Shown: in pieces, positions 7,568 through 43,947 of the stretch | Position numbering within the stretch: position 1 is the stretch's first letter | How the letters are laid out: each line of letters begins with the position of its first letter | Assembly (NCBI GenBank): GCA_019751815.1 | Contig: JAIEMW010000001.1 | Coordinates: forward strand, 690,197 to 754,196 | DNA from: Cyanobacteriota bacterium | GTDB lineage: Bacteria > Cyanobacteriota > Vampirovibrionia > Vampirovibrionales > Vampirovibrionaceae | Length of the DNA: 64,000 bases | Direction of reading: 5' to 3' | Translations under genes and position numbers: made by a program | The notes under the pieces: generated by a model | The model's input: only the letters and a program-made list of their open reading frames with translations | What the model was told of the DNA's origin: nothing | Database searches by the model: none

Positions 7568-8605
7568 CTAACGGGCGTTGAATAAATAGTGGGAGACGTG
7601 CCATTCGTTGCCGTGGTCATATCCCCATAGTTCTGCGCACGCCATAAAAAACACCTGCCAGTAAACCCACCACCGTGTCACTTGCTCTTCTCCATACGTA
7701 CTGGCCAAAATCGGCAAAATCTCAGACCGGTGTCGCTTCATATTCTCCAACCAGGCTTCCGCCGTTTTTTGATAATGCACCCCATTCACCGCCCACTGGT
7801 TTGCTATCGTAAAATCATCCTGAAAATACAATAATAAATCATGGCTGGGCATCGTCCCACCCGAAAAGAAATACCGCGTCATCCAATCCCGCGGCCCCTG
7901 GTCTTCGTAATGATACGCCACCGTCTTGTGCGTAAAAATATGCACAAATAACCGCCCGTCATCCCTAACCCACCTTCGTATTTTACGAAGCAAGGCCTCG
8001 TAATTTTTCATATGCTCAAACATCTCTATCGAAATCACACGGTCAAACTGCGGTGACCCCTCAAAATCAAAGTCCACAATATTACCTGTGATAATCTCTA
8101 AATTTTTAAATCCCTTAGCCTGGGCCACACTATCAATATAGGCTTTTTGACTTCTGGAATTGGAAAGCCCCGTAATCTTAGCTTGTGGATACTTTTCAGC
8201 AAGCCATAACGACATCGAACCCCAACCACAGCCCAAATCCAATATGCGCTGTCCGTCTTCAATCTGCGCACGATCGCATGAGAGTTGAAGCATGGTCTCT
8301 TCCGCCTCAGCCAGCGTCTTGGTTTCAGGCGTCCAGTAACACCCGCTGTACTTTCTGCGCGGCCCCAAACAATAGTGATAAAAATCACTGGGCACTTCAT
8401 AGTGTTGATCGTTGGCCGCCTGTGTCTCAATCGCAATCGGACTCTGTTTTAGGTCGGCCACAAAATCCAAAATAACTTGGTTTTGATCTTCAACATTGGC
8501 CTTATATTCCACGCGAAGTTTTTGTGACAATAAATATCGAATCCCCAGACGAATCAAGGGCTCTGGCACCAAATTGCTTTCTATGAGTTGATCCAAAAAC
8601 GACAT
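7568..8605 (-). CDS. SAM-dependent methyltransferase, cyclopropane-fatty-acid-synthase family (second copy)
   Basis: The 345-residue protein is a class I methyltransferase of the CFA synthase family. The SAM site is ILDLGCGWGSMSLWLAEKYP, followed by the acidic ISIEMFEHMKNYE block and the family tail in HVSHYLF. The N-terminal half carries NDQHYEVPSDFYHYCLG, equivalent to the family YD-x-FY lipid-binding segment. CFA-family enzymes add a methylene or methyl group across a double bond of a membrane phospholipid acyl chain; this subgroup also includes small-molecule N-methyltransferases. It is the last gene of the lipid-tailoring operon, 12 bp after the DUF1295 gene, and is distinct from the first CFA gene (9782-11095). 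Confidence 0.8.
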   Translation of the reverse strand: MSFLDQLIESNLVPEPLIRLGIRYLLSQKLRVEYKANVEDQNQVILDFVADLKQSPIAIETQAANDQHYEVPSDFYHYCLGPRRKYSGCYWTPETKTLAEAEETMLQLSCDRAQIEDGQRILDLGCGWGSMSLWLAEKYPQAKITGLSNSRSQKAYIDSVAQAKGFKNLEIITGNIVDFDFEGSPQFDRVISIEMFEHMKNYEALLRKIRRWVRDDGRLFVHIFTHKTVAYHYEDQGPRDWMTRYFFSGGTMPSHDLLLYFQDDFTIANQWAVNGVHYQKTAEAWLENMKRHRSEILPILASTYGEEQVTRWWVYWQVFFMACAELWGYDHGNEWHVSHYLFNAR

Positions 8606-31759: not shown

Positions 31760-32515
31760 TTAAGCGTTTAAAAGTTGAGGTTCTAAAAAGTGAGAAAAGG
31801 CAGAACTCTCAAGCGTTTGAAAGTAATTTACTGATTGACTGCCCACTTCTTCAGTACTTTTTCTTACAATTTGAGACGCTTGACAGCCAGCATTTCTGGC
31901 GGCACTGATCTCTTTTGGGTGGTCTGATAAAAATAATATTGCCCCTGGAGAGCACCCTAAATGGCGGGCAATAAGAATGTAAGATTCACTTTCCTGTTTT
32001 GCCCCAACTCGGGTGTCAAAGTAATCCGAGAAGTAGGGGGTTAAGTCTCCTGCAATTGAATACTGAAACAGTAATTTTTGGGCTTCCACAGAACCAGAAG
32101 AATAAATTGCCAACTGTTTGCCTGTTTCTTTCCAATGAGCCAAAGCCTTTGGCACATCTGGGTAAATATGGCTTTGATACGCTCCTGTCTCGTACCCTTG
32201 ACGCCAAATGAAACCTTGAATAGTTTTTAAGGCCGTATGCTTCCTGTCCTCATCTATCCATCTCACCAGAATTTGACTCAATTCACTTGGAGCATCGATA
32301 GGGTGGTTGAGACCCTCTTCGATTAACGTGGCCTTTACCTGGGAGAGCGCCGTTAGCACCACCTCTTCTTGCCAGTGGTCTTGAATATAGGCATCCATCC
32401 GGTCTCGGGCATATGGGAATAGTACCTGATGGACAAAGGCAATCTCTGTGGTCGTGCCCTCAATATCAAGCAAAATCCATTGGGTTATATCACTGGTCGA
32501 TATATCATTGGGCAT
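31760..32515 (-). CDS. mtnC: Enolase-phosphatase E1 (methionine salvage)
   Basis: The 251-residue HAD enzyme starts with the nucleophile motif WILLDIEGTTTEIAFVHQVL, typical of MtnC (DIEGTT). The second motif is the Ser in AIYSSGSVEAQ and the late acidic motif is ILFLSDHPKEISAARNAG. It enolises and dephosphorylates 2,3-diketo-5-methylthiopentyl-1-phosphate to the acireductone. It is the third gene of mtnB-mtnD-mtnC, 4 bp after mtnD. Confidence 0.95.
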   Translation of the reverse strand: MPNDISTSDITQWILLDIEGTTTEIAFVHQVLFPYARDRMDAYIQDHWQEEVVLTALSQVKATLIEEGLNHPIDAPSELSQILVRWIDEDRKHTALKTIQGFIWRQGYETGAYQSHIYPDVPKALAHWKETGKQLAIYSSGSVEAQKLLFQYSIAGDLTPYFSDYFDTRVGAKQESESYILIARHLGCSPGAILFLSDHPKEISAARNAGCQASQIVRKSTEEVGSQSVNYFQTLESSAFSHFLEPQLLNA

Positions 32516-32519
32516 TTGA

Positions 32520-33071
32520 TTAACTCACCAAAACCAAATCAGCATAGCGACTGGCAATGTCTGAGCCGGTATAATGCGGTGTCCAACCAGAAGCATCCGT
32601 GAAAATGCGAATGGTTTTAACAAAGGGATGTACCCCCATTTCAAACCAATGCTTCACCCCGGCTGGGACAGAAATTAAATCCCCTTGCTGACAGCGCACA
32701 CAAAAGACCTCATTCTCGAGATGAAACCAGAAATCACCCACCCCATCGACAAAAAAACGGACTTCATCTTCGCTATGGGTATGTTCTTTTAAGAATTTTT
32801 CTCGCAAAGCCTCCAGATTGGGCGTTTCTGGATTAACCGTGATCACATCCGCCGTTTGATAGCCGTGAGCCTGCATATAAGGGGTGAGCTGGGCTTGAAA
32901 TAGATACAAAATTTCGGTTTCACTCAGCGGGGATTCTACTGTCTCTCCCTGAAACAACTCAGGAGAGACGGGCCACTGGAGAAATAAAATGCCACGTTCA
33001 GCGAGGAAGGCTTGAATAGAAGCGGGTTCCGTGAGTGTAACGCCAGAGTCTGGAACAGATAAAATCGCCAT
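32520..33071 (-). CDS. mtnD: Acireductone dioxygenase
   Basis: The 183-residue cupin has the ARD metal site in HTHSEDEVRFFVDG (His, His, Glu) and VPAGVKHWFEMG (His). The iron form makes the ketoacid precursor of methionine with formate; other metals give a side reaction. It starts directly next to mtnB and 4 bp before mtnC, with tight operon spacing. Confidence 0.95.
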   Translation of the reverse strand: MAILSVPDSGVTLTEPASIQAFLAERGILFLQWPVSPELFQGETVESPLSETEILYLFQAQLTPYMQAHGYQTADVITVNPETPNLEALREKFLKEHTHSEDEVRFFVDGVGDFWFHLENEVFCVRCQQGDLISVPAGVKHWFEMGVHPFVKTIRIFTDASGWTPHYTGSDIASRYADLVLVS

Positions 33072-33770
33072 TTAAACTCCCTTTTTTAGCTGAATCCACT
33101 TCAGCTGACAGTCAAACAAAAACTCAAACACTTCCGCATGCCGTTGCGCAGCAGGAGGCGTGTCTCCCCAAGTATACAAACCGTGTCCAGCAAGCAAAAA
33201 ACCATAACAAGAATTCTGCGGGCTGTGTGTTTGCAATACCGGTTCAATTTGTTGTACTAGGGCAGTCATGTCCTGATTGTTATCAAACACGGGGATGCTC
33301 ACCTTATCCAAATGGCTGGCAACACCTGAAAACCCTTTGAGGATTTCGTAGTCTTCAAACGCAAGCATGTCATAATCTGCCTGAATTTTCTCTCTATTTG
33401 TGCGGGCCCACTTGGAGAGTACCGTTGCGTTTGGCGAGTGAATATGGACTACTGTATTTGCGCTAGGATAAAGACGGTAAATCATCTCATGCAAAGCTGT
33501 TTCAGCCGAAGGCTTAAGATCTGTAACCGGCAGAGGTTGTTTTAGAGGCGAATCTACTGAAACCCGTAAAAAATCTTCGGTACGTAACTGACTTTTATCA
33601 AGACCCGATACAGAAATCCAAAACCCTCCTGCCTTTGAGCGCACTGAAAAATTGGAGCTGGTAGCAGGAGTCCACCCCATGCTGCTCAAAAAATGCACTA
33701 CAGTCACCAAGGACTGCCGCTCTGCACTATCTTCTATCGATACTTCTAGAGTCGCCATAGGTTTGGACAA
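33072..33770 (-). CDS. mtnB: Methylthioribulose-1-phosphate dehydratase
   Basis: The 232-residue class II aldolase-fold protein shows the zinc site VVHIHSPNATVLSKW and the later GFLLAGHGLYTWG. MtnB dehydrates methylthioribulose-1-phosphate in methionine salvage. It heads the three-gene unit. mtnA and mtnK are not in this window, so the upstream steps must be encoded elsewhere. No S-box riboswitch is seen upstream. Confidence 0.94.
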   Translation of the reverse strand: MSKPMATLEVSIEDSAERQSLVTVVHFLSSMGWTPATSSNFSVRSKAGGFWISVSGLDKSQLRTEDFLRVSVDSPLKQPLPVTDLKPSAETALHEMIYRLYPSANTVVHIHSPNATVLSKWARTNREKIQADYDMLAFEDYEILKGFSGVASHLDKVSIPVFDNNQDMTALVQQIEPVLQTHSPQNSCYGFLLAGHGLYTWGDTPPAAQRHAEVFEFLFDCQLKWIQLKKGV

Positions 33771-33879: not shown

Positions 33880-34798
33880 TTGGACGCTATGCCAAAAACA
33901 AACTATCGAAGTAGACCCATGAACTTCTTTATAGTGCTCTCCTTGGTAATTCTGATGCCATGGACAAGTCCATTTGTTTCTGTTGCCCGTGCGGAAATCA
34001 CCTTAAAAAAATCACAAGGCCCCCATTTTATGGGTATTTCGGCAAGATCTCTCCTCTAAAACCTCACATTCTCAAGATGTTTTTGAAGCAGAACTGCCTG
34101 AAAAAACCTGTATTAAATCTCAATGCATTCCTGAAAAAACCCGCTTACGGGGTCATCTGGTTGAGGTCAAGGCTTCAAAACGCTTTCATCGCCCGGGATA
34201 TCTTCTTATAGAGCTGGATTCGATGCTTATCCCGAGCATTTCTCCGAGCTCTTCACAGTTATCACCAACGGGGACGTATATATCCTTAGAAGCGCTTCCT
34301 TCAGAAGACAGACATATTCAGATTTTTAATCCCAATGCCACGCATTTAAAGTCATTTCTGCTCTCTCAAATTCCTGGTTTATTATTTGAAGCGGCTTTGC
34401 CCAGTGTTCTGGGAGCGACAACCACCTTAAAAGCAGGCAAACTGGCACTGGCTACTTTGGCCATTGGGGGTGCCTATGATGTTGGACAAGAAGTCATTGC
34501 CCCCACGTTCAAAAACACCTCCATCCCGCAACGGATCGGACTCGGGATTTTAAACATATTTTATATTCCCGATGCCATTGCTCTAGTAAAGCGTTCACCC
34601 GAGGCACAGGTGACTCAAAATCAACCGGTCCCCCTTATTTTCCCCAAACGGGTTTTTCATCAGTTGAGTGAGTGCGCCAACGCCTCATCAGCCTCATCAC
34701 AAACTCCCAACCCTGAAAACAGTATTGAACTCGAAGTGAAAGCACAGCCCCTTCCAGAACCAGTCAGCGACCCCGCTGAGTTTTATCCCAACCCTTAA
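33880..34798 (+). pseudogene. Secreted or membrane protein gene interrupted by a frameshift at an A7 run
   Basis: A signal peptide (MNFFIVLSLVILMPWTSPF, then VARAEITLKK) is read in one frame from TTG 33880 or ATG 33889. At the run AAAAAAA (34005-34011) coding character moves to the next frame. That frame is open from 34007 to the stop at 34798 and reads on through LRGHLVEVKASKRF and GYLLIELDSMLIP. The 3' part has a hydrophobic region AALPSVLGATTTLKAGKLAL and an acidic Pro-rich tail. One base less in the A run would restore a protein of about 300 residues. The family is not recognised. It may be a true mutation, a sequencing error or slippage. Confidence 0.65.
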
Positions 34799-36252
34799 AT
34801 AGTTGCCTTTAAAAACGTGATTTCAAAGGCCGCATCATTCTCTGGGTGAAATACGCTGGGCTGTATGGCAACCTGTGCTTGGTGAAACTCTGCGATCTCT
34901 TTAACAATAGACAAGCCTAACCCACTGCCAATAAGCTGTTCGGCATGAGCACCCCGGTAAAATCTTTCCCATATTTGTGATTGCTCCACCAATGGAATGC
35001 CTTCACCCGAATCATCGACACGTAATACGACTGTATTATCTGTGTTTAAGATACTGACGAGGATACTTCCATCTTCAGGGCTGTAACGAATCGCATTGTC
35101 GATTAAATTAATCAGCAACTCTTGCAAACTGGCCTGATTTCCATCTATCCAATGAGATTCTTCCAGACCTTCAAACTGAATATCTCGTTTTTTCGCCTCT
35201 TCAGACTGTGAAAGCAACTCAATCGCAACAGTTTGGACCAAGGCACTGAGGTCCAAGGGCTCTTTCAGCAAGATGAGTGCTGGAGAACTGGGTTCATAAC
35301 GAGCCAGGCTTAACAACTGATTAACCAGACGGTTAGTACGTTTAAGCGAAATCTGCATCTGAGACAATAGTGCCTGTTGTTCTGCAACCAGTCCCTTGTC
35401 CTGAGACAAGATATCCAGATAGGTTTGTAATCCGGCAATAGGGGTCTTGAGTTGATGGGCTGCATTGGACAAGAATCTGATTTGTGAGGAATACGCTTCT
35501 CTCAATCGACCCAAAAGCCCGTTGATAGCAAGCGTAAAAGAAAATACCTCTTTTGGAACACTCGTAAGTGATATCTCTTCGAGATCTCCAGGGTGTTTCT
35601 CAACCACCAGTGCCTGAAGAATTTCTAACGGTTGAAGTCCAAATCGAACAGCGACCCATATCAGGAGGATTCCCAGGAACAACATCACCAGTTCTGGAAT
35701 CACAATCGCCCATACAATACTTTGGTAAGCATCCTCTCGTTGTTGAATATCTTCACTGACTAACACATTAAGCTGTGGAACAGAAGGATTGCTTTGTATC
35801 GACGTGGGAAGCATCACCACACGAACCCGTTCTTGTTTATTTTGATCTGGATGTTGCAGATCAGGTTGAGGCAATGTGTCATTAAAGAATAATGAAGCAT
35901 CATCGTCATCTTCTTCAACGTGCTTCGAACTGGAAGGTGGCTTTAGATGAGGGTTACCTAGTAAAAACTGTCCTCCTTGAGTCCAGACACTGTATTCTTG
36001 CCGTTGTCCGACTTGACCGCGCAAGACCTCTTGGGCGTCTTGGTGAAGATCCAAGTCCAACTTACGGTTAACATATTTAATTCTGGCTTGGATGACTCGA
36101 GCCGTATCTTTCAGCCCTTCATCAAAGGCATCAGTTGCAATGGTGAGTGAAATACAATACAAAACAAAGGCTTGAATCAAACACAGCAGAATGAATGGTC
36201 CCAGCAAAAAGAACACAATCCGTCTGCGAATCGAAAGCGGGTTACGAAGCAT
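34795..36252 (-). CDS. Sensor histidine kinase (TctE/QseC-like)
   Basis: The 485-residue kinase has a first membrane helix (about 12-35), a periplasmic region to about 175, and a second helix (about 178-205). The phospho-acceptor His lies in SNAAHQLKTPIAGL, the form used by TctE/QseC-type kinases. The ATP domain has LLINLIDNAIRYSP (N box), DDSGEGIP (G1) and GSGLGLSIVKEIA (G2). The periplasmic region is acidic, with VEEDDDDASLF, which could bind cations. It overlaps the regulator gene by 11 bp. The pair is divergent from the aminotransferase operon. Confidence 0.93.
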   Translation of the reverse strand: MLRNPLSIRRRIVFFLLGPFILLCLIQAFVLYCISLTIATDAFDEGLKDTARVIQARIKYVNRKLDLDLHQDAQEVLRGQVGQRQEYSVWTQGGQFLLGNPHLKPPSSSKHVEEDDDDASLFFNDTLPQPDLQHPDQNKQERVRVVMLPTSIQSNPSVPQLNVLVSEDIQQREDAYQSIVWAIVIPELVMLFLGILLIWVAVRFGLQPLEILQALVVEKHPGDLEEISLTSVPKEVFSFTLAINGLLGRLREAYSSQIRFLSNAAHQLKTPIAGLQTYLDILSQDKGLVAEQQALLSQMQISLKRTNRLVNQLLSLARYEPSSPALILLKEPLDLSALVQTVAIELLSQSEEAKKRDIQFEGLEESHWIDGNQASLQELLINLIDNAIRYSPEDGSILVSILNTDNTVVLRVDDSGEGIPLVEQSQIWERFYRGAHAEQLIGSGLGLSIVKEIAEFHQAQVAIQPSVFHPENDAAFEITFLKATI

Positions 36253-36925
36253 CCAGAATATATCCCAAGCCTCGTATCGTTTTTACCGTCACCCCGGCAT
36301 CGGCATCCTCTATCTTTTTTCGGATCCGAGAAATACACACTTCCACAGCATTGGGCTGAACGTCCTTATCTTCTCCGTATAAGGAGTCTAAGAGTTGAGT
36401 TTTACTCACGACTTTGCCCTGATTTTGAAGCAAGTAGGTCAATACAGAGAGTTCACGGGCTGAAAAATCGAGGGCATGCTCATCGGCATAGACTCGACGT
36501 CCTTGTAGATCCATCCGAATTCGGCCGCATTGGATACTTTCGTTTAAAAATTGGGCTGAATGTCTCCGTAATAGAGCATTCACTCTTGCTTCCAGCTCTA
36601 ATAAATCAAAGGGCTTGGTCATATAGTCATCTGCACCCATGTTTAACCCACTCACTCTATCCGGTAGAGTATCCCGAGCTGTGAGCATCATCACCGGAAA
36701 GGTATAAGCGGCTTCTCTTATTTTTTTCAACAGCTGGAACCCATCCTCGTAAGGCAGTCCAATATCTAATATGACCAAATCGACCGTTTCTAACTGAAGT
36801 TGTTCAATTAGACCGAGCCCGTGGCGCTGCCATAAAACATCATAACCAGCACGGCGCAAAGCCAGTTCAATCCCAGGTCCCAGGACGGGATCATCTTCAA
36901 TCAGCAGTAAGCGGGGCAGAGACAA
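36242..36925 (-). CDS. OmpR-family response regulator
   Basis: The 227-residue regulator has a receiver domain with acidic EDD (10-12), phospho-acceptor Asp54 in VILDIGLP and Lys in YMTKPFDL. The OmpR-type winged helix ends in VKTIRGLGYILD. It resembles the QseB/TctD/PmrA group. The gene faces away from the aminotransferase operon across a 264-bp spacer and is a natural candidate to control it. Confidence 0.94.
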   Translation of the reverse strand: MSLPRLLLIEDDPVLGPGIELALRRAGYDVLWQRHGLGLIEQLQLETVDLVILDIGLPYEDGFQLLKKIREAAYTFPVMMLTARDTLPDRVSGLNMGADDYMTKPFDLLELEARVNALLRRHSAQFLNESIQCGRIRMDLQGRRVYADEHALDFSARELSVLTYLLQNQGKVVSKTQLLDSLYGEDKDVQPNAVEVCISRIRKKIEDADAGVTVKTIRGLGYILDAS

Positions 36926-37131
36926 TAGTTATTCTCCAACAGGGTTTGTTAAAGGCTTATTTGTTTTGTCAGTTTCGTGAAAGCTTCCAGACAGATTGAT
37001 GTCAGAACTTGGGGCTTCATCGTTCTATGATTGTAATCTGAGGACAAAGTGAGCGGTTTACTCGCAAAAATCCTCTGTAATTTGTCTGTATTGTAAGCCA
37101 CGCACACACTAAATGGTTTGCTTTTTACACA

Positions 37132-37163
37132 TTTTTTTAATCTAACCAATTTTTTTTAATCTA
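37132..37163. promoter_or_regulatory. 13-bp direct repeat upstream of the aminotransferase operon
   Basis: TTTTTTTAATCTA occurs at 37132-37144 and 37151-37163, a 19-bp period, ending 26 bp before the operon's first start codon. OmpR-type regulators bind direct repeats, so this is a candidate site, though poly-T content makes chance resemblance possible. The rest of spacer 36926-37189 shows no clear feature. Confidence 0.4.
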
Positions 37164-37189
37164 GCGTTTTTCTGATGGAGACCCTCTGT

Positions 37190-38623
37190 ATGAGTCCGCA
37201 ACCTGTTGCTAATACCCTGGATCAAGAGAACCTCAGCCCCCAAGAGCTCACCAAAAAGCTTTTGGCCGTTGAGAATAAAGTCTGCTCATACGGTGATACT
37301 GTTCACTACGCCAAAGATCCAAAGTTTTTTAAACACTGTGAAGGCAGCTATCTCTTTGATCTGGAAGAAACACCCTACCTGGATCTACAAATGTGGTACT
37401 CTGCTGTGAATTTAGGCTATGCTAACCCGCGAGTGAATGAGTCCCTGAAGCGTCAGATTGATCAACTTCCCCAATTGGCTTGTCAATACTTGCACCCAGA
37501 AAAAATTCATCTGGCTGAAAAGTTAGTCAACAGTGTTCAAAAAGGCTTTGGTCAAGTTGGTCGGGTGCATTTCAATGTGGGCGGAGCCCAAGCGGTCGAA
37601 GATTCCCTTAAACTTGTTCGCAAACATACTCGAAAACAGCATATGTTTGCTTTTGAAGGGGGTTATCACGGGCGAACATTAGGGGCGTCAGCGATTACAT
37701 CCTCATATCGCTACAGAGAACCCTTTGGTGAGTTTGGTGATCGGGCAGAATTTATCCCATTTCCATACTGCTTCCGTTGCCCCTACGGTAAAGAACCTGA
37801 TTCTTGCAAGCTATACTGCGCTCAGCAATTTGTACGCAAGTTTGAAACTGAATACTACGGTGTTTTAAATCCGAAAAACGGGAAATCTGAGTTTGGGGCC
37901 TTTTACATGGAACCCTTACAAGGGACAGGTGGCTATGTGAAACCACCAGAAGGCTATTTTGAAATCATCGCCGAGGTATGTAAGGCTTACGGGATTCTCT
38001 TGGTGGATGACGAGATCCAGATGGGCTTTTTCCGCACTGGGAAGCTTTGGGCTATGGAACACTTTGGGATTAAACCGGACATTATTGTGTTTGGGAAAGC
38101 CCTCACCAACGGAATGAATGCTTTGTCTGGTCTTTGGGCTAAAGAAGAGTTGATTAACCCAGAGCAATTCGGACCCGGTTCAACGCACTCCACATTTTCT
38201 TCCAACACCTTGGGCACTGCAACTGGGCTAGAAGTAATGACTATCTTTGAAGACGGTGATTTTGAAACCTCTGTGCCGGCCAAAGGCGCCTATTTCTTAG
38301 AACAGCTTCAATCGCTCCAGAAAAAACATCCTGAAATTGGTGATGTAGACGGGCTCGGACTGGCACTTAGAATGGAAATGTGCCAAAAAGACGGATTTAC
38401 CCCCAGCCGTGAATTGGCAGATGCGATGTTCCAGAAGGGTCTCAGCGGAGATCTCCAGGCACGAGGCAAGAAAATGGGCCTGATCTTAGACATTGGTGGG
38501 TATTACAAAAATGTGGTGACTCTCGCTCCTTCACTCACCATCACCCATGACGAAATCGATCTCGGCATTGAATTGTTGGATCAGGTGATCACCCTCTGCA
38601 AAAAAGAAGGGGCTGGTGCATAA
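37190..38623 (+). CDS. Class III PLP-dependent aminotransferase
   Basis: From ATG 37190, which has a GGAG box 9 bp upstream, the product is 477 residues. Class III features are present: GGYHGRTLGA, the Asp of LLVDDEIQMGFFRTGK and the PLP Lys about 303 in FGKALTNGMNALSG. These enzymes move amino groups from omega positions (ornithine, lysine, GABA, putrescine, diamines). A Cys4 motif C-x2-C-x8-C-x3-C (about 194-210, PYCFRCPYGKEPDSCKLYC) sits in the middle, as in a subset of the family, and could bind a metal or cluster. It is the first gene of a seven-gene overlapping operon. The substrate is not identifiable. Confidence 0.9.
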   Translation: MSPQPVANTLDQENLSPQELTKKLLAVENKVCSYGDTVHYAKDPKFFKHCEGSYLFDLEETPYLDLQMWYSAVNLGYANPRVNESLKRQIDQLPQLACQYLHPEKIHLAEKLVNSVQKGFGQVGRVHFNVGGAQAVEDSLKLVRKHTRKQHMFAFEGGYHGRTLGASAITSSYRYREPFGEFGDRAEFIPFPYCFRCPYGKEPDSCKLYCAQQFVRKFETEYYGVLNPKNGKSEFGAFYMEPLQGTGGYVKPPEGYFEIIAEVCKAYGILLVDDEIQMGFFRTGKLWAMEHFGIKPDIIVFGKALTNGMNALSGLWAKEELINPEQFGPGSTHSTFSSNTLGTATGLEVMTIFEDGDFETSVPAKGAYFLEQLQSLQKKHPEIGDVDGLGLALRMEMCQKDGFTPSRELADAMFQKGLSGDLQARGKKMGLILDIGGYYKNVVTLAPSLTITHDEIDLGIELLDQVITLCKKEGAGA

Positions 38624-38625
38624 CG

Positions 38626-39435
38626 ATGAGTCAAAAACCCTATAGCTCAAACCCATTTCAGACTTTCGCTAGTCCAAGTTCAGTTTCAAATGCTGTTTCA
38701 GAACTCGCAAAACAAGCGCTCCCATTTGGCCAGTCTGCCTTCACTGTTTTTTGCGATTTTGATGGAACCGTTTCTCTTAAAGACTGTACCGATACGCTTC
38801 TCTCAGCGCTGGCCTCTGCTGAATGGGAAAGCATCGAGGATGAGTGGGTTCGCGGTGACATTTCATCAAGAGAATGCCTTGCCCGTCAAATCCCTCTAAT
38901 TGAGGGTGGTTGGCCTGCTATTCAACGGGTGCTGGACACGATAGAAATTGATCCTGCCTTCCCACGTTTTGCTCAATGGTGCCGTAGCAATGGAATTCGC
39001 CTGTTTATGGTGAGTGAAGGCCTAGACCGGGTAATTCAGTACATGCTCGACAAGGCGGGCGTTCGCGTCGATGCGATCTTTGCCAATCACCTTGTGTGCC
39101 ATGAAGACGGCCAGGTGGATATTGAGTTTCCAAGGGCCAATCTCTCCGGCGGTTGCGATGCCGGTCTGTGTAAGTGTGCAATTCTGCAAAACCCACTTCT
39201 TAACCGACATAAGCAGACCATCGTGATCGGTGATGGACGCAGTGATTTCTGTTGGTCTTTAGAGGCGGATGTGTTATTCGCCAAAGGCAAACTCGTGGCC
39301 CATGCCGAAAGTCACCAGAAAGAAGTGTACGCCTTCCGTCAGTTTGATACCGTGCTGGCGGAGCTAAAGCATCTTCAGCTTCAGCAGATGCCCCTTCCTC
39401 AGATCACTTCGGAGTTTGAGTTAGTTCGGTCATGA
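38626..39435 (+). CDS. MtnX-like HAD-IB family phosphatase
   Basis: The 269-residue protein has the HAD nucleophile motif VFCDFDGTVSLKDCTDTL, motif II Ser in RLFMVSEGLDR and the acidic motif VIGDGRSDFCWSLEAD. This is the SerB/MtnX-like subgroup, which dephosphorylates small metabolites. A methionine-salvage role is unlikely because the window already has mtnC. It lies 2 bp after the aminotransferase and overlaps the esterase gene by 4 bp. A phosphorylated intermediate of the operon's pathway is the likely substrate. Confidence 0.88.
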   Translation: MSQKPYSSNPFQTFASPSSVSNAVSELAKQALPFGQSAFTVFCDFDGTVSLKDCTDTLLSALASAEWESIEDEWVRGDISSRECLARQIPLIEGGWPAIQRVLDTIEIDPAFPRFAQWCRSNGIRLFMVSEGLDRVIQYMLDKAGVRVDAIFANHLVCHEDGQVDIEFPRANLSGGCDAGLCKCAILQNPLLNRHKQTIVIGDGRSDFCWSLEADVLFAKGKLVAHAESHQKEVYAFRQFDTVLAELKHLQLQQMPLPQITSEFELVRS

Positions 39436-40316
39436 CTCCCGGCGAAACCGCGACTGAAAACCATTCTTCAGCAAAGCATTCTTCTTCAGCAGTCATCCTT
39501 TTGCACGGTCTGACTGGTACGCCTGCAGAAATGAGGGCGTATGCAAAAAAATTTGAGTTACTCGGTGTTCATACCGTAAATCCACTATTAGCGGGACATG
39601 GCGGCAGTAACAATGATTTACTGGCGGTGACCTGGAAAGACTGGTTGAACACCGTCACAACCGCTGTTCGCTTAACCCAAAAAGACTATAAACACGTTTT
39701 CATTGTTGGGGTTTCTATGTCATCGCTTTTGGCTGTTCTTGCTGCGGCAGAAATACCAACTGTCAGTGGTATTGTTTTGCTGTCTCCCCATTACGGGCCA
39801 TACGCGCGGGGGACTGATTGGCGAAAAATTTTTCTCCCGCTGCTCTATAAAATGCCCGACTGGGTACATCGGTGGATTTACTGGGAAGAGACCCCGCCTT
39901 ACGGAATGAAGGATGAGCGCCTACAGCGCAGGATTAAAGCACAGTTGGACCGCAACAGTCATGGGGACGGAGGAGAGCACGGTCTCTTTCGGACTTATGT
40001 AAAATACTTTTATCAGCTCCATCAGTTACAAAACCAGATCCACCAAGTTGCCGCCAAGGTCCACTGTCCGGCTTTGGTCATTCATTCTGTCGAAGATACG
40101 GTTATGGACCCCATGTGCGGCGCGATGCTTTACAGAGACCTTGGAACCACCCGCAAAACGCTTCGTATCATCAATGATTCCGATCATGTCATGATGCTGG
40201 ATCTCCGCAAACTGGACGTGTTTCAATGGATCTATCAATTTATTCAAACCCACACTCCAGAAGTCACTGAATTTTTGAACCGAGCCAATGAGCAACCACA
40301 GTCCCACACAGCTTAG
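39432..40316 (+). CDS. Alpha/beta-fold hydrolase (carboxylesterase-like)
   Basis: The 294-residue protein has VILLHGLTGTPAEMRAYA at the oxyanion hole, nucleophile Ser in VGVSMSSLLAVL (GxSxS rather than GxSxG), Asp in HSVEDTVMDP and His in DSDHVMMLD. It resembles Est30-type carboxylesterases. It overlaps the HAD gene by 4 bp and the next gene by 29 bp. An ester or thioester of the pathway's product is a plausible substrate. Confidence 0.85.
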   Translation: MTPGETATENHSSAKHSSSAVILLHGLTGTPAEMRAYAKKFELLGVHTVNPLLAGHGGSNNDLLAVTWKDWLNTVTTAVRLTQKDYKHVFIVGVSMSSLLAVLAAAEIPTVSGIVLLSPHYGPYARGTDWRKIFLPLLYKMPDWVHRWIYWEETPPYGMKDERLQRRIKAQLDRNSHGDGGEHGLFRTYVKYFYQLHQLQNQIHQVAAKVHCPALVIHSVEDTVMDPMCGAMLYRDLGTTRKTLRIINDSDHVMMLDLRKLDVFQWIYQFIQTHTPEVTEFLNRANEQPQSHTA

Positions 40317-41580
40317 TGCAACCCTTCACAACACCTGGCAGTCTATCACTGCCGAAGAATGGGGTCGCCTATTTCCTGCCACGGCAGATTCACCCCAAAT
40401 GCTCGCCCATAATGAACGCTCTGGGTTTGACGGCGTTTCATTTTTCAGTCTTGTGGTCAGCCAACGTGACCCAAATAGTCATAAATTGAGTCCCCGTGAG
40501 TTACCGATACTCTACATTCCCCTATTTTTAACCCCCTTTGATGTTCCTCGAATTTTTGATCCCGCCATTGCAAGCAAGGCTCAAGCTGTTTTGAAAGGCT
40601 TACCGAACTGGGTTCAGAAATGGTTTTACCCAACATTACTTGGTGTTGGCTTTTTGGAGTGCGAGTGGGGAGAAGTGGGCTTTGATAGGACAGTGAGCGA
40701 CGACGTACTGAAGGAAGCCTGGGCATTAGCCATCCAAGCATTGGATAAGTTTTCTCAGGCGATGAAAGTCGATTTACAGATTTATTCGCACTTTAATCCA
40801 CTTAGTTCTCAAGCCTTGATTCCAGAAGCGCTCCAAGGTTACTGTGTCATGGATTCTCCACCGATTGCGATGTTGTCTATGTTGGGGCTTTCCAGTCTCG
40901 ATGAGTATTTTGAGACGCTGTCTTACGCCCGACGCAAAAATATTCGCCGAAAACTGAAAGCAGCCAAAGAAATACGCGTTGAATGGACCACAGATCCAAC
41001 CCCTTGGATAGCCGACATTTATTCACTCTATCTCACCTCTCGCGATGCCGGAGAAGCCATGTTTACCCCCCACAGAGAAGACTTTTTTGCCCGTATCTGT
41101 CAGGAAGTTCCCGGTGCCCGCTACGCGCTATATTTTAAGGGAGACCGTCTATTGGCCTTTAATTTACTAGTTCATTATAGAGACAGATTGGTCGATAAAT
41201 TTTTCTGCAAACACCCTCAAGAAGCCGCCCCGTTTAATTTATATTTTGTCTCTTGGGTCGAAAATATTCGTCATTGTATCGAACATCAAATCCCCCTGTA
41301 TTATGCAGGCTCTTGGCTTGAAGCAGTGAAAGAAAAACTCGGTGCCCGTTTTTTACCAAGCTATGTGGCTTTTCACCACCGACATCCTTTCTTAAATTGG
41401 CTATTTCCTCTGATTCAGAAATTTTTGACCTACCAGCCCCAAGTGTCTCTGCCTCAGTATCGTTTGGGATACCCCATACAAGCTGTGCAAGACCCACAAT
41501 TGTTATCATCGCTCACACTACTGGCTCCCGGTTTATCGGCACCAGAGTCGGTACCACCGAATCTTAGTGTCATTCCATGA
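40288..41580 (+). CDS. FemAB/GNAT-like acyltransferase (COG3146 type)
   Basis: The 430-residue protein resembles the FemAB-like group of the GNAT fold. LDEYFETLSYARRKNIRRKL and RYALYFKGDRLLAFNLLVHY are typical, and LVDKFFCKHP near FNLYFVSWVENIRHCIE marks the C-terminal half. Related enzymes transfer amino acids or acyl groups to cell-wall precursors or small molecules. The start lies 29 bp inside the esterase gene, a long overlap that supports translational coupling. The donor and acceptor are unknown. Confidence 0.75.
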   Translation: MSNHSPTQLSATLHNTWQSITAEEWGRLFPATADSPQMLAHNERSGFDGVSFFSLVVSQRDPNSHKLSPRELPILYIPLFLTPFDVPRIFDPAIASKAQAVLKGLPNWVQKWFYPTLLGVGFLECEWGEVGFDRTVSDDVLKEAWALAIQALDKFSQAMKVDLQIYSHFNPLSSQALIPEALQGYCVMDSPPIAMLSMLGLSSLDEYFETLSYARRKNIRRKLKAAKEIRVEWTTDPTPWIADIYSLYLTSRDAGEAMFTPHREDFFARICQEVPGARYALYFKGDRLLAFNLLVHYRDRLVDKFFCKHPQEAAPFNLYFVSWVENIRHCIEHQIPLYYAGSWLEAVKEKLGARFLPSYVAFHHRHPFLNWLFPLIQKFLTYQPQVSLPQYRLGYPIQAVQDPQLLSSLTLLAPGLSAPESVPPNLSVIP

Positions 41581-42634
41581 GTCAGATTTTTGGAGTCAGA
41601 TTTTTGAGCCCACCGCAATGCCTCATCCAGGAATAAATTCAGTTCAATCTTCACCTGTGATCTCACAGTGGCTCAGCTTGGGTTTGGGCATAGATGACAC
41701 GCTGATGGCCCAAACCTGTGTGTGGGAGATGTTGGCCGTCAAGCCCAACTTCCGGCAATGGGAAGAGTCTCTTAGACTTTGGGCAGATCATCAGGCATTA
41801 AACACCTTCACAGAAGCATTGGCACAATTGAGAAAGACTTATCCGGAACAACCCTGGCTCACCTTTATCGGCTCTGGGGATTTTCATCATCTGACACATA
41901 CACTGTTGGAAACCCTGGCTATTCCCAATGAACGGCCACTGCATCTGATTCTGATTGATAACCACCCTGATTGGTTTCAATGGGGACCCAAGTATCACTG
42001 CGGCAATTGGGTTTCATTGGTGTTAAAACAAAAACATGCCAATACTCAACGTCCCAAGATTGCCTCTGTACACTTGCTGGGGCAAGACAGTGAAGATTTT
42101 AGCCCCACCAGTTTCTGCTTTATGCCCTTTGATGACTTAGCGCAAGGCCGGGTTAATCTCTACCCCTATCAAAAAAAGAGACTCCCTGTGCTGGGACGTT
42201 GGCCTGTTAAAGTTGCTGGCGTTAAACATTCTGTAAAACGTTGGTATGGTGTTGACTTGCACCCTCGAACTGTTAGCGAAACAGGAATTCAAGCCTTGTG
42301 CGAAGAACTCCTCCAGCAATATCCGGATGACTTGTTTTATATCTCCATTGATAAAGATTGTTTGCACCTGGAAACAAGTACCACCGACTGGGATCAAGGG
42401 AGCATGCATCCTAATGAGCTTCTAGACGCGTTGCGGGTATTTAAGGCTTCCCATCGTTTGATTGGCGTGGATGTTTGCGGAGAACTCAGTCAAAAACCGG
42501 TGCAAGGGTTATGGAAAAATATAGACAGTGGTCGTTATTTTCGCCATAGTCCCCCGTCAGAAGTACAAATTGCCCAAAACCAATCGGTGAATCAAGCCAT
42601 ATTAGAGATATTTTCAGGGACTAACCCGCTATGA
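41567..42634 (+). CDS. Arginase-fold (ureohydrolase superfamily) protein
   Basis: The 355-residue protein has the layout of the arginase/agmatinase/histone-deacetylase-like fold: GSGDFHHLTH near residue 105, LILIDNHPDWF (DxHxD metal ligands) and ISIDKDCLHLE (DxD ligands). These motifs bind two Mn ions in true ureohydrolases. The usual GGDHS and D-x-D-P elements are altered, so the substrate may not be arginine or agmatine. It overlaps the FemAB-like gene by 14 bp and the next gene by 4 bp. Hydrolysis of a guanidine or amide within the operon's pathway is inferred. Confidence 0.8.
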   Translation: MSFHESDFWSQIFEPTAMPHPGINSVQSSPVISQWLSLGLGIDDTLMAQTCVWEMLAVKPNFRQWEESLRLWADHQALNTFTEALAQLRKTYPEQPWLTFIGSGDFHHLTHTLLETLAIPNERPLHLILIDNHPDWFQWGPKYHCGNWVSLVLKQKHANTQRPKIASVHLLGQDSEDFSPTSFCFMPFDDLAQGRVNLYPYQKKRLPVLGRWPVKVAGVKHSVKRWYGVDLHPRTVSETGIQALCEELLQQYPDDLFYISIDKDCLHLETSTTDWDQGSMHPNELLDALRVFKASHRLIGVDVCGELSQKPVQGLWKNIDSGRYFRHSPPSEVQIAQNQSVNQAILEIFSGTNPL

Positions 42635-43005
42635 GTTTTACCGCCATTATCGCCTCCTTATGCTGCATCCTGATTGAAACGGTTCAGCAGTTGTCCTTTG
42701 CGCTGTCGTCTAAAGAGACGGGAGGCATAACAGCCACATCTTTAACAGCCTCTCCTGCTCCAAACAAAGTTTTCTGGCTTTCGTTGGGGATTATTTTGCA
42801 TATTGGCGTGCTTGGCAGCTGGTACTGGATGTTAACCCTGCTTCCCCTCAGTTTAGCAGCCCCGTTGATGGGGGGTAGTTATGCAACCACCACACTGGCC
42901 AGTCAATGGCTATTAAAAGAGCAGGTTTCGCTTAAACGGTGGCTGGGTGTTATTTGCATCACACTGGGATTAATGATTATATGGCGGGTTCAACCCAATG
43001 GATAA
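42631..43005 (+). CDS. SMR/EamA-like small membrane transporter subunit 1
   Basis: The 124-residue protein has four membrane helices. The last two follow the EmrE/EamA half-domain pattern: LAAPLMGGSYATTTLASQWL and VSLKRWLGVICITLGLMIIW. Such short proteins work as dimers; ArnE/ArnF-like pairs flip lipid-linked amino sugars and others export cationic drugs. The start overlaps the arginase-like stop by 4 bp. The next gene encodes a second, similar protein. Confidence 0.85.
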   Translation: MSFTAIIASLCCILIETVQQLSFALSSKETGGITATSLTASPAPNKVFWLSLGIILHIGVLGSWYWMLTLLPLSLAAPLMGGSYATTTLASQWLLKEQVSLKRWLGVICITLGLMIIWRVQPNG

Positions 43006-43411
43006 GGCCGCTGATAATAAATCTCATGTTAGATCTCCAGTTGTTTCCGGGGAAATTAGCCTATTTGCCTTTCTAAGCCTGCTGGCTATTGACGTTTTAC
43101 TCTTGTTACTTGAGAAAATTGCCGCACTCCATGCCCATGGAGAAGGTTGGAATTACTTTTACGATTTACTCAGCCATCATTATTTTTGGATGGCTATTGC
43201 TCTTGCACCACTCCAGCTTTGGCTGTGGACACAAATCTTAAAGCATGTGGATCTTAGCCTAGCCTACCCCCTGTTTAGCCTATCTTATCCATTATCCATG
43301 GTTGTGGCTCAATGGGTTTTAGGAGAGACGGTATCAACAACCGCCTGGTTGGGAGCAGGCTTAATCACCATCGGCGTTGGGTTACTGAAGGACAGTCCCA
43401 AACACAGTTAA
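42998..43411 (+). CDS. SMR/EamA-like small membrane transporter subunit 2
   Basis: The 137-residue protein has a hydrophilic 20-residue head and four helices, with AYPLFSLSYPLSMVVAQWVL and VSTTAWLGAGLITIGVGLL matching the same half-domain. It overlaps subunit 1 by 8 bp and ends the operon. Two unequal genes side by side are typical of obligate SMR heterodimers, which insert in opposite orientations. A flippase or exporter for the operon's amine product is the simplest reading. Confidence 0.85.
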   Translation: MDKAADNKSHVRSPVVSGEISLFAFLSLLAIDVLLLLLEKIAALHAHGEGWNYFYDLLSHHYFWMAIALAPLQLWLWTQILKHVDLSLAYPLFSLSYPLSMVVAQWVLGETVSTTAWLGAGLITIGVGLLKDSPKHS

Positions 43412-43503: not shown

Positions 43504-43947
43504 TTGTGTGTGATGTGTGTATTTATAATGATTCCAAGCCTGTCACGCGCGTCTCATTTTCATCCAAAGATGATGACGGCACCCCACCATTTTAAACACC
43601 CGCCCCAACCCCATTTTGGGTCGAGTCATCACGTCCCTTCTGTGGTGATGGTGACCGATCAGGATTTGAGTGACGCGGAAAAAGAAGTGATTGCACTGCT
43701 GAAACAAGCAGGCATTAATCCAGTTGTAGGGTTTGGAACAACCCCGAAACCCAATCCCGTTGGAATCCTTGTTCCCATTGGCTCACAGAGACAAGCAAAA
43801 ACTATCTTGACCCAAGATGCTAGATTTTCCCCCGTTGATCCCAGTGATCCGACGTTTTCGGTTTATAGACGCTTTGCACCTAACGCAGAAGCAGTCGAAT
43901 ATAACAAGCCAGGCAGCCCGTTTCCCATTCGCATTATTATTGAATAG
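43504..43947 (+). CDS. Small His-rich hypothetical protein
   Basis: The 147-residue protein starts at a GTG and has a short hydrophobic head, then a His-rich stretch with HFHPKMM, HHFKHPP and HFGSSHHV, which could bind metal. The rest is ordinary and hydrophilic, with DQDLSDAEKEVIALLKQAG. No family is recognised. The start is uncertain; ATG 43528 would remove the hydrophobic head. It is convergent with the next gene, 24 bp away. Confidence 0.55.
   Translation: MCVMCVFIMIPSLSRASHFHPKMMTAPHHFKHPPQPHFGSSHHVPSVVMVTDQDLSDAEKEVIALLKQAGINPVVGFGTTPKPNPVGILVPIGSQRQAKTILTQDARFSPVDPSDPTFSVYRRFAPNAEAVEYNKPGSPFPIRIIIE

Follow-up and report, generated by a model that had tools for sequence, protein, structure and literature searches.

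A recurrent seven-gene cluster beside a divergent two-component system in Vampirovibrionaceae, possibly making and flipping a cationic lipid

We examined a run of seven plus-strand genes, with a divergently read two-component system, in a 64,000-nucleotide stretch (the window) of contig JAIEMW010000001.1 (assembly GCA_019751815.1), from a Cyanobacteriota bacterium of the family Vampirovibrionaceae. The features of the locus, numbered by window position, are as follows.

37175-43411, plus strand: seven-gene run, all seven present in the list of open reading frames (ORFs)
37175-38623, plus strand: class III (pyridoxal phosphate, PLP) aminotransferase (AT), PF00202
38626-39435, plus strand: MtnX-like HAD-IB phosphatase (HAD), PF12710 and TIGR01489
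39432-40316, plus strand: alpha/beta hydrolase (ABH) of monoacylglycerol-lipase type, PF12146
40288-41580, plus strand: tandem-GNAT transferase with FemABX/MprF-like fold, from PF13480, a structure model, Foldseek and VIA-align
41567-42634, plus strand: arginase-fold (ureohydrolase) metallohydrolase (ARG), from PF00491, a structure model and metal-ligand positions
42631-43005, plus strand: SMR/EamA-like small membrane protein, subunit a, with negative charge bias and an acid in the first transmembrane helix (TM1)
42998-43411, plus strand: SMR/EamA-like small membrane protein, subunit b, with positive charge bias
36242-36925, minus strand: OmpR-type response regulator, PF00072 and PF00486
34795-36252, minus strand: sensor histidine kinase, its periplasmic domain of 2CSK_N type and containing an acidic segment, from PF08521, PF00512, PF02518 and hydropathy
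37132-37163, plus strand: 13-bp direct repeat TTTTTTTAATCTA, two perfect copies 19 bp apart, just 5' of the first gene

A sequence-only reading of this DNA had described the seven genes as a tight operon, and this holds: the junctions comprise, in order, one 2-bp gap and then overlaps of 4, 29, 14, 4 and 8 bp. The divergent two-component system that it reported is also real, although its boundary at 36242 takes in the regulator only and the kinase extends to 34795. The start of the arginase-like gene is uncertain, as an alternative ATG at 41618 would give 338 amino acids, the length of database entry P0001, and would turn the GNAT/arginase-like junction into a 37-bp gap, the sole loose junction of the run. 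Pfam cut-offs were passed for PF00202, PF12710, PF12146, PF13480 (32.1 versus 22 bits) and PF00491 (26.3 versus 22), and for EamA subunit b lies just above the cut-off (28.7 versus 28.2) and subunit a slightly below it (26.3). No NCBIfam equivalog model was reached at cut-off by any of the seven proteins, so that the names used here are family-level only.

Assessing whether the gene set recurs, we scanned genome contigs with the arginase-like protein as query and took the best 80 of at least 527 relatives, mostly Pseudomonas; loci were fetched and then searched with the remaining genes, and 15 duplicate or short fetches were removed before counting. Among the 94 loci with matches, some of them close relatives of one another, 83 carried all five enzymes and at least two SMR ORFs, and the enzyme genes together occupied 5.2-9.2 kb (median 7.0 kb). 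These sets come from Vampirovibrionia (including a same-family relative, a Vampirovibrio chlorellavorus bin), Pseudomonas, Rhizobiaceae, Roseomonas, Azospirillum, Aureimonas and Xanthomonas. The 11 incomplete loci include seven Pseudomonas loci broken by contig ends (L009, L019, L027, L049, L052, L078, L083), the remainder being a short fetch (L100) and partial sets in a Melainabacteria bin (L008), a planctomycete (L017, at a contig end) and Bartonella (L105). Gene order is common to the window, L006 and L007; in Pseudomonas it runs ARG-SMR-SMR and then HAD-AT-ABH-GNAT-kinase-regulator, in Rhizobiaceae regulator-kinase-HAD-AT-ARG-SMR-(desaturase)-ABH-GNAT-SMR, and Roseomonas and Xanthomonas show further distinct orders. 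That the same genes stay together while their order changes speaks for a common function, and chance adjacency is ruled out by the recurrence of the set in other genomes. The sequence-only reading had implied a single pathway and proposed a neighbourhood search, naming a lack of co-occurrence as what would count against it; the genes do co-occur, across phyla and in rearranged orders. That the seven genes form a conserved unit is strongly supported.

Plasmid carriage and patchy distribution accompany this conservation. Among 72,556 plasmid records, the arginase-like query matched 47, and the phosphatase query also matched 47, with identical genus counts and including all 40 listed arginase-like accessions. 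The GNAT query returned 44 records, 43 within the same 47-record set and one a Streptomyces outlier, while at E 1e-20 it missed Xanthomonas and three Bartonella; the aminotransferase query, run only at E <= 1e-100, returned 34 records, all within the set. Seventeen of the 47 records matched by the arginase-like query are predicted to be conjugative. The family is rare, being found in 4/58 relatives, in 1/194 genomes of the window's phylum (the window itself), and in 2/289, 1/274 and 1/199 genomes of samples around Agrobacterium, Pseudomonas and a planctomycete, the centre genome being counted each time. Being rare, patchy and carried on plasmids, the cluster may have spread horizontally. Gene distances among HAD, ABH, GNAT and the arginase-like protein correlate at r 0.81-0.95, and those of the four with the aminotransferase at r 0.39-0.54, both with species descent uncontrolled; the lower values reflect four loci (L091, L101, L102 and L103, from Roseomonas, Azospirillum, Aureimonas and one further source) in which the aminotransferase belongs to a different class III subfamily. 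A reduced cluster of aminotransferase, GNAT and arginase-like genes on a Bartonella sp. HY328 plasmid (L105, 8965-15014) adjoins an MBOAT O-acyltransferase, with the phosphatase on the same plasmid, far from the other cluster genes.

The aminotransferase scores 258.9 bits against PF00202 (cut-off 30.5), and its K308, which we take to be the PLP lysine, is present in 13/13 deduplicated rows of its subfamily. The HAD phosphatase reaches TIGR01489 at 106.5 bits (cut-off 81.55) with D44 and D46 of its DFDGT motif invariant, and falls short of the MtnX equivalog models (86 of 303.2 and 104.3 of 292 bits). For the hydrolase, the nearest solved structures are LipS, a thermostable monoacylglycerol lipase and a carboxylesterase, and of 31 aligned rows, 22 have Ser as the nucleophile and 9 have Cys. 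The swap to Cys occurs in Rhizobiaceae hydrolases (L107, L071, L090 and other rhizobial loci) whose triad Asp and His are unchanged, and it may be a sign that these proteins transfer acyl groups rather than hydrolyse. Modeled with a pLDDT of 89.8, the GNAT protein resembles the FemX/MprF/Sbb17 aminoacyl-tRNA transferases by Foldseek and VIA-align, with N-myristoyltransferase close behind; its top Foldseek matches are Sbb17 and Sba18, two synthases that use streptothrisamine, and it gave no match to PF09924 (LPG_synthase_C, DUF2156) at E <= 0.01. The GNAT family also has members named from Desulfuromonadaceae and Thermodesulfovibrionales. The arginase-like model (pLDDT 92.5) has its metal-ligand positions H107, D131, H133, D135, D262 and D264 conserved in 43/43 rows, and position 306, which follows a one-residue insertion (DVCGE), is likewise acidic in 43/43 (29 E, 14 D). 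This acid may tentatively correspond to the guanidinium-binding Glu of arginase, a match based on the residue numbering of arginase and on alignment.

The two small membrane proteins have the charge pattern of a pair. With loop limits set by hand on the alignment, the Arg/Lys bias is opposite in the two, from -5 to 0 in subunit a (9/10 negative, L005 zero) and from +1 to +7 in subunit b (10/10 positive), as expected of paired SMR proteins forming a heterodimer of fixed topology. The TM1 acid is kept in 10/10 a subunits and 8/10 b subunits. Neither subunit reached the ArnE or ArnF cut-offs, subunit a scoring 33 of 99 (ArnF) and 31.8 of 92 (ArnE) and subunit b 33.7 of 92 (ArnE) and 31.4 of 99 (ArnF), and a sequence search with subunit b against solved structures returned no match.

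The set is usually found next to a two-component system, with the kinase start at most 700 bp from the GNAT end in 64/64 complete Pseudomonas loci. The top NCBIfam model for the window's regulator is PmrA, at 186 of the 330 bits needed, and for the kinase a heavy-metal sensor (176.2 of 292.55) followed by PmrB (157 of 314), all below cut-off. The periplasmic part of this kinase carries the acidic run VEEDDDDAS, which is reminiscent of the PhoQ cluster EDDDDAE, to which PMC8534201 ascribes the binding of divalent cations and of antimicrobial peptides. Rhizobial sensors have NEDADDYADAH in common, but the sensor of L008 is not acidic, which leaves the resemblance suggestive only. The 13-bp repeat is a possible regulator site; the matching regions of L006, L007 and L008 showed no copy of it. 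A scan for promoters and terminators gave nothing above shuffled sequence and no site 5' of the first gene.

Accessory genes recur beside the cluster and bear on what it makes. Using desaturase queries from L107 and L008 (PF00487), we found a fatty-acid desaturase in 28 loci. In 27 it lies within the cluster; the remaining one, L100, is a short piece of the same genome as L103, where the desaturase is within the cluster. These loci include 19/64 complete Pseudomonas, two Agrobacterium vitis, other rhizobia and one Melainabacteria bin. Across 15 annotated plasmid loci, the neighbours were a desaturase (7), a cyclopropane-fatty-acyl synthase (5), MipA/OmpV (7), UppP (2), a ketosynthase with acyl carrier protein (1, Xanthomonas) and EptA (1); in 13 of these loci the cluster was immediately adjoined by a response regulator or a two-component pair. 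The EptA neighbour scores 590.8 bits (cut-off 500), and the same locus holds a gene annotated as diacylglycerol kinase, the available cut piece of which matched no NCBIfam model. UppP stands beside two Roseomonas loci, MipA/OmpV occurs in 63/64 complete Pseudomonas loci, and MacAB- or ABC/TolC-type efflux genes adjoin some loci. The desaturase, cyclopropane synthase and ketosynthase/acyl carrier neighbours point to a fatty-acyl lipid product, an idea absent from the sequence-only reading. A divergent DegT-family aminotransferase lies beside the SMR pair in three unrelated clusters (L008 11763-13004, L091 7330-8565 and L106 16155-17405).

The GC content of the operon is unremarkable (47.1% versus 45.8% for the window), and the flanking ORFs 34223-34795 and 43504-43944 have no Pfam match at E <= 0.001. 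On the minus strand at 31760-33770 lie methionine salvage genes, of which MtnC acireductone synthase and MtnB score above their NCBIfam cut-offs, with one further gene between them. Some 29 kb from the operon, a cyclopropane-fatty-acyl-synthase-like methyltransferase (7568-8605, minus strand) remains below equivalog cut-offs (162.4 of 400). None of the seven proteins matched PADLOC at E <= 1e-5, and a role in anti-phage defence was set aside on this basis.

Taking these observations together, we give a probability of roughly 0.45 to the reading that the genes encode an inducible pathway in which a cationic amino- or aminoacyl-lipid is made and then turned to the outside, a pathway MprF- or Arn-like in action and a member of neither. 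The accessory genes suggest that the product is a lipid; for its charge and the link to peptides we rely on the amine chemistry, the SMR acid, and the MipA and EptA neighbours. As a cationic-lipid system the cluster is moderately supported; the individual reactions, placed here in an order that we infer, are weakly supported. Envelope stress, for example from cationic antimicrobial peptides, would switch the pathway on through the two-component system, whereupon the aminotransferase and the HAD phosphatase would produce an amino-alcohol or amine head group, the same pairing being used on other phosphorylated keto compounds by HisC with the HisB phosphatase and by SerC with SerB. The tandem-GNAT protein would couple this head group either to a fatty acyl group or to an amino acid drawn from aminoacyl-tRNA; by removing a guanidino or similar group, the arginase-fold enzyme would unmask an amine, and the lipase-like hydrolase would trim or exchange acyl chains. 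The SMR heterodimer would then flip the cationic lipid across the inner membrane to its outer face. The whole would amount to an MprF or Arn equivalent divided among several enzymes, and would help the cell withstand antimicrobial peptides. The host has LpxC and makes lipid A, and no match to the MprF synthase domain (PF09924) was found in its genome (93.9% complete).

Several other explanations draw on the same evidence. The SMR pair may export a small soluble cationic compound, polyamine- or streptothricin-like and made by the cluster, rather than flip a lipid. This would accommodate the retained TM1 acid, a feature kept by proton-coupled exporters of cations (PMC9574504), as well as the streptothrisamine-using synthases that head the GNAT structure matches and the efflux genes adjoining some loci; a desaturase inside the cluster in 27 loci, the cyclopropane synthase and ketosynthase/acyl carrier neighbours and a hydrolase resembling monoacylglycerol lipases speak against it, and we consider it unlikely. 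A closer kin of Arn, in which undecaprenyl phosphate receives an amine or amino sugar that the SMR pair flips and that is then moved to lipid A or another surface glycan, is also unlikely in our view. The SMR halves do score best against the ArnE/ArnF models, a DegT-family aminotransferase (the family of ArnB) adjoins the SMR pair in L008, L091 and L106, UppP or EptA neighbours a few loci, and the host has LpxC. Yet the core set is without a glycosyltransferase, a nucleotide-sugar enzyme or an ArnT-like transferase, the ArnE/F scores (about 31-34 of 92-99) lie far under cut-off, and the TM1 acid is retained.

Catabolism offers another way to place an arginase-fold hydrolase with its metal ligands kept next to a class III aminotransferase, since these are the enzymes of the classical ornithine route, and the operon might degrade arginine or related amines with its other genes as accessories. 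No ornithine or gamma-aminobutyrate (GABA) aminotransferase model is reached at cut-off, however, the GNAT, SMR pair, phosphatase and desaturase would be superfluous for catabolism, and control is by a two-component system rather than by a metabolite, which together leave this explanation improbable. That the HAD phosphatase instead belongs to the upstream methionine salvage genes and the cluster is a chance mixture is hardly credible: its MtnX-like family assignment (TIGR01489) and the nearby salvage genes would fit, but the window already has MtnC (261.7 bits, cut-off 128.1), the MtnX equivalog models are not reached, and the phosphatase travels with the cluster on 47/47 plasmid records. An MtnX identity is itself ruled out by MtnC and MtnB upstream together with those unreached models.

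Returning to the cationic-lipid pathway, a bolder form of it, which we regard as rather doubtful, is that the cluster defines an undescribed class of inducible cationic membrane lipid in Gram-negative bacteria, exchanged between phyla. Such a lipid would have an amine head group made by aminotransferase and phosphatase, and possibly be phosphate-free; it would receive its charge from a stand-alone aminoacyl-tRNA transferase, lose a guanidino group to a dedicated arginase-fold enzyme and be moved across the membrane by an SMR heterodimer, constituting a third route of envelope charge reversal beside Arn and MprF. If the cationic-lipid reading is right, many soil- and plant-associated bacteria would carry an unrecognised envelope-charge route, partly on conjugative plasmids, seven families so far annotated by fold alone would gain a function, a cluster-dependent lipid visible to lipidomics would be predicted, and SMR pairs would be seen to flip lipids beyond Arn's undecaprenyl carrier. 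Our searches of an open-access library showed no paper describing this gene set (PMC5047915 is unrelated), which, with subscription papers outside that coverage, is weak evidence of novelty.

Comparison with known systems places the cluster among several partial relatives. It recalls the MipA/MipB-ParRS system of P. aeruginosa in that a MipA/OmpV barrel stands beside the two-component system in most Pseudomonas and many rhizobial clusters; PMC10936184 reports that a MipA of that species binds polymyxins and assists ParS of ParRS, and that a two-component system lies beside mipA in most loci screened there. By contrast, no MipA match was found in the window's genome (93.9% complete), and mipB was not sought. 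The arginase-like protein has the PF00491 match and metal-binding residues of the ureohydrolase superfamily, and differs from arginase, agmatinase and formimidoylglutamase in its distant sequence and the one-residue insertion before the conserved acid (DVCGE). FemABX and Sbb17/Sba18 provide the closest folds to the GNAT model (9wqw, 9wqy, 1xf8, 1lrz), but identity is only about 10-16%, no FemAB Pfam family is matched over cut-off, and tRNA use by the GNAT protein is putative.

The parallel with Arn and PmrAB drawn by the sequence-only reading is supported in part: it stands for the amine chemistry and the envelope and regulatory logic. The cluster shares with them paired SMR subunits, OmpR-type two-component control and, in one relative, an EptA neighbour, whereas the ArnE/F cut-offs and the PmrA/PmrB equivalog cut-offs are not reached by the SMR proteins or by the regulator and kinase. 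Its further statement that the enzymes are not Arn homologues is borne out, as no Arn sugar enzyme, ArnT or other Arn enzyme is among the Pfam/NCBIfam matches of the seven proteins (a search limited to the operon), and the SMR proteins mostly keep the TM1 acid. MprF/LpiA resembles the cluster in its tandem-GNAT transferase fold, which the model of the cluster's GNAT protein also adopts, in having a membrane flipping partner and in a cationic lipid product, here a presumed one; MprF homologues are reported also to make lysyl-diacylglycerol (Lys-DAG) and lysyl-glucosyl-diacylglycerol (Lys-Glc-DAG) (PMC10580965, PMC8893666). Unlike MprF/LpiA, the cluster encodes its GNAT as a separate gene without an LPG_synthase_C match, has an SMR pair as its predicted flippase, and adds an aminotransferase, a phosphatase, an arginase-fold enzyme and a lipase-like hydrolase.

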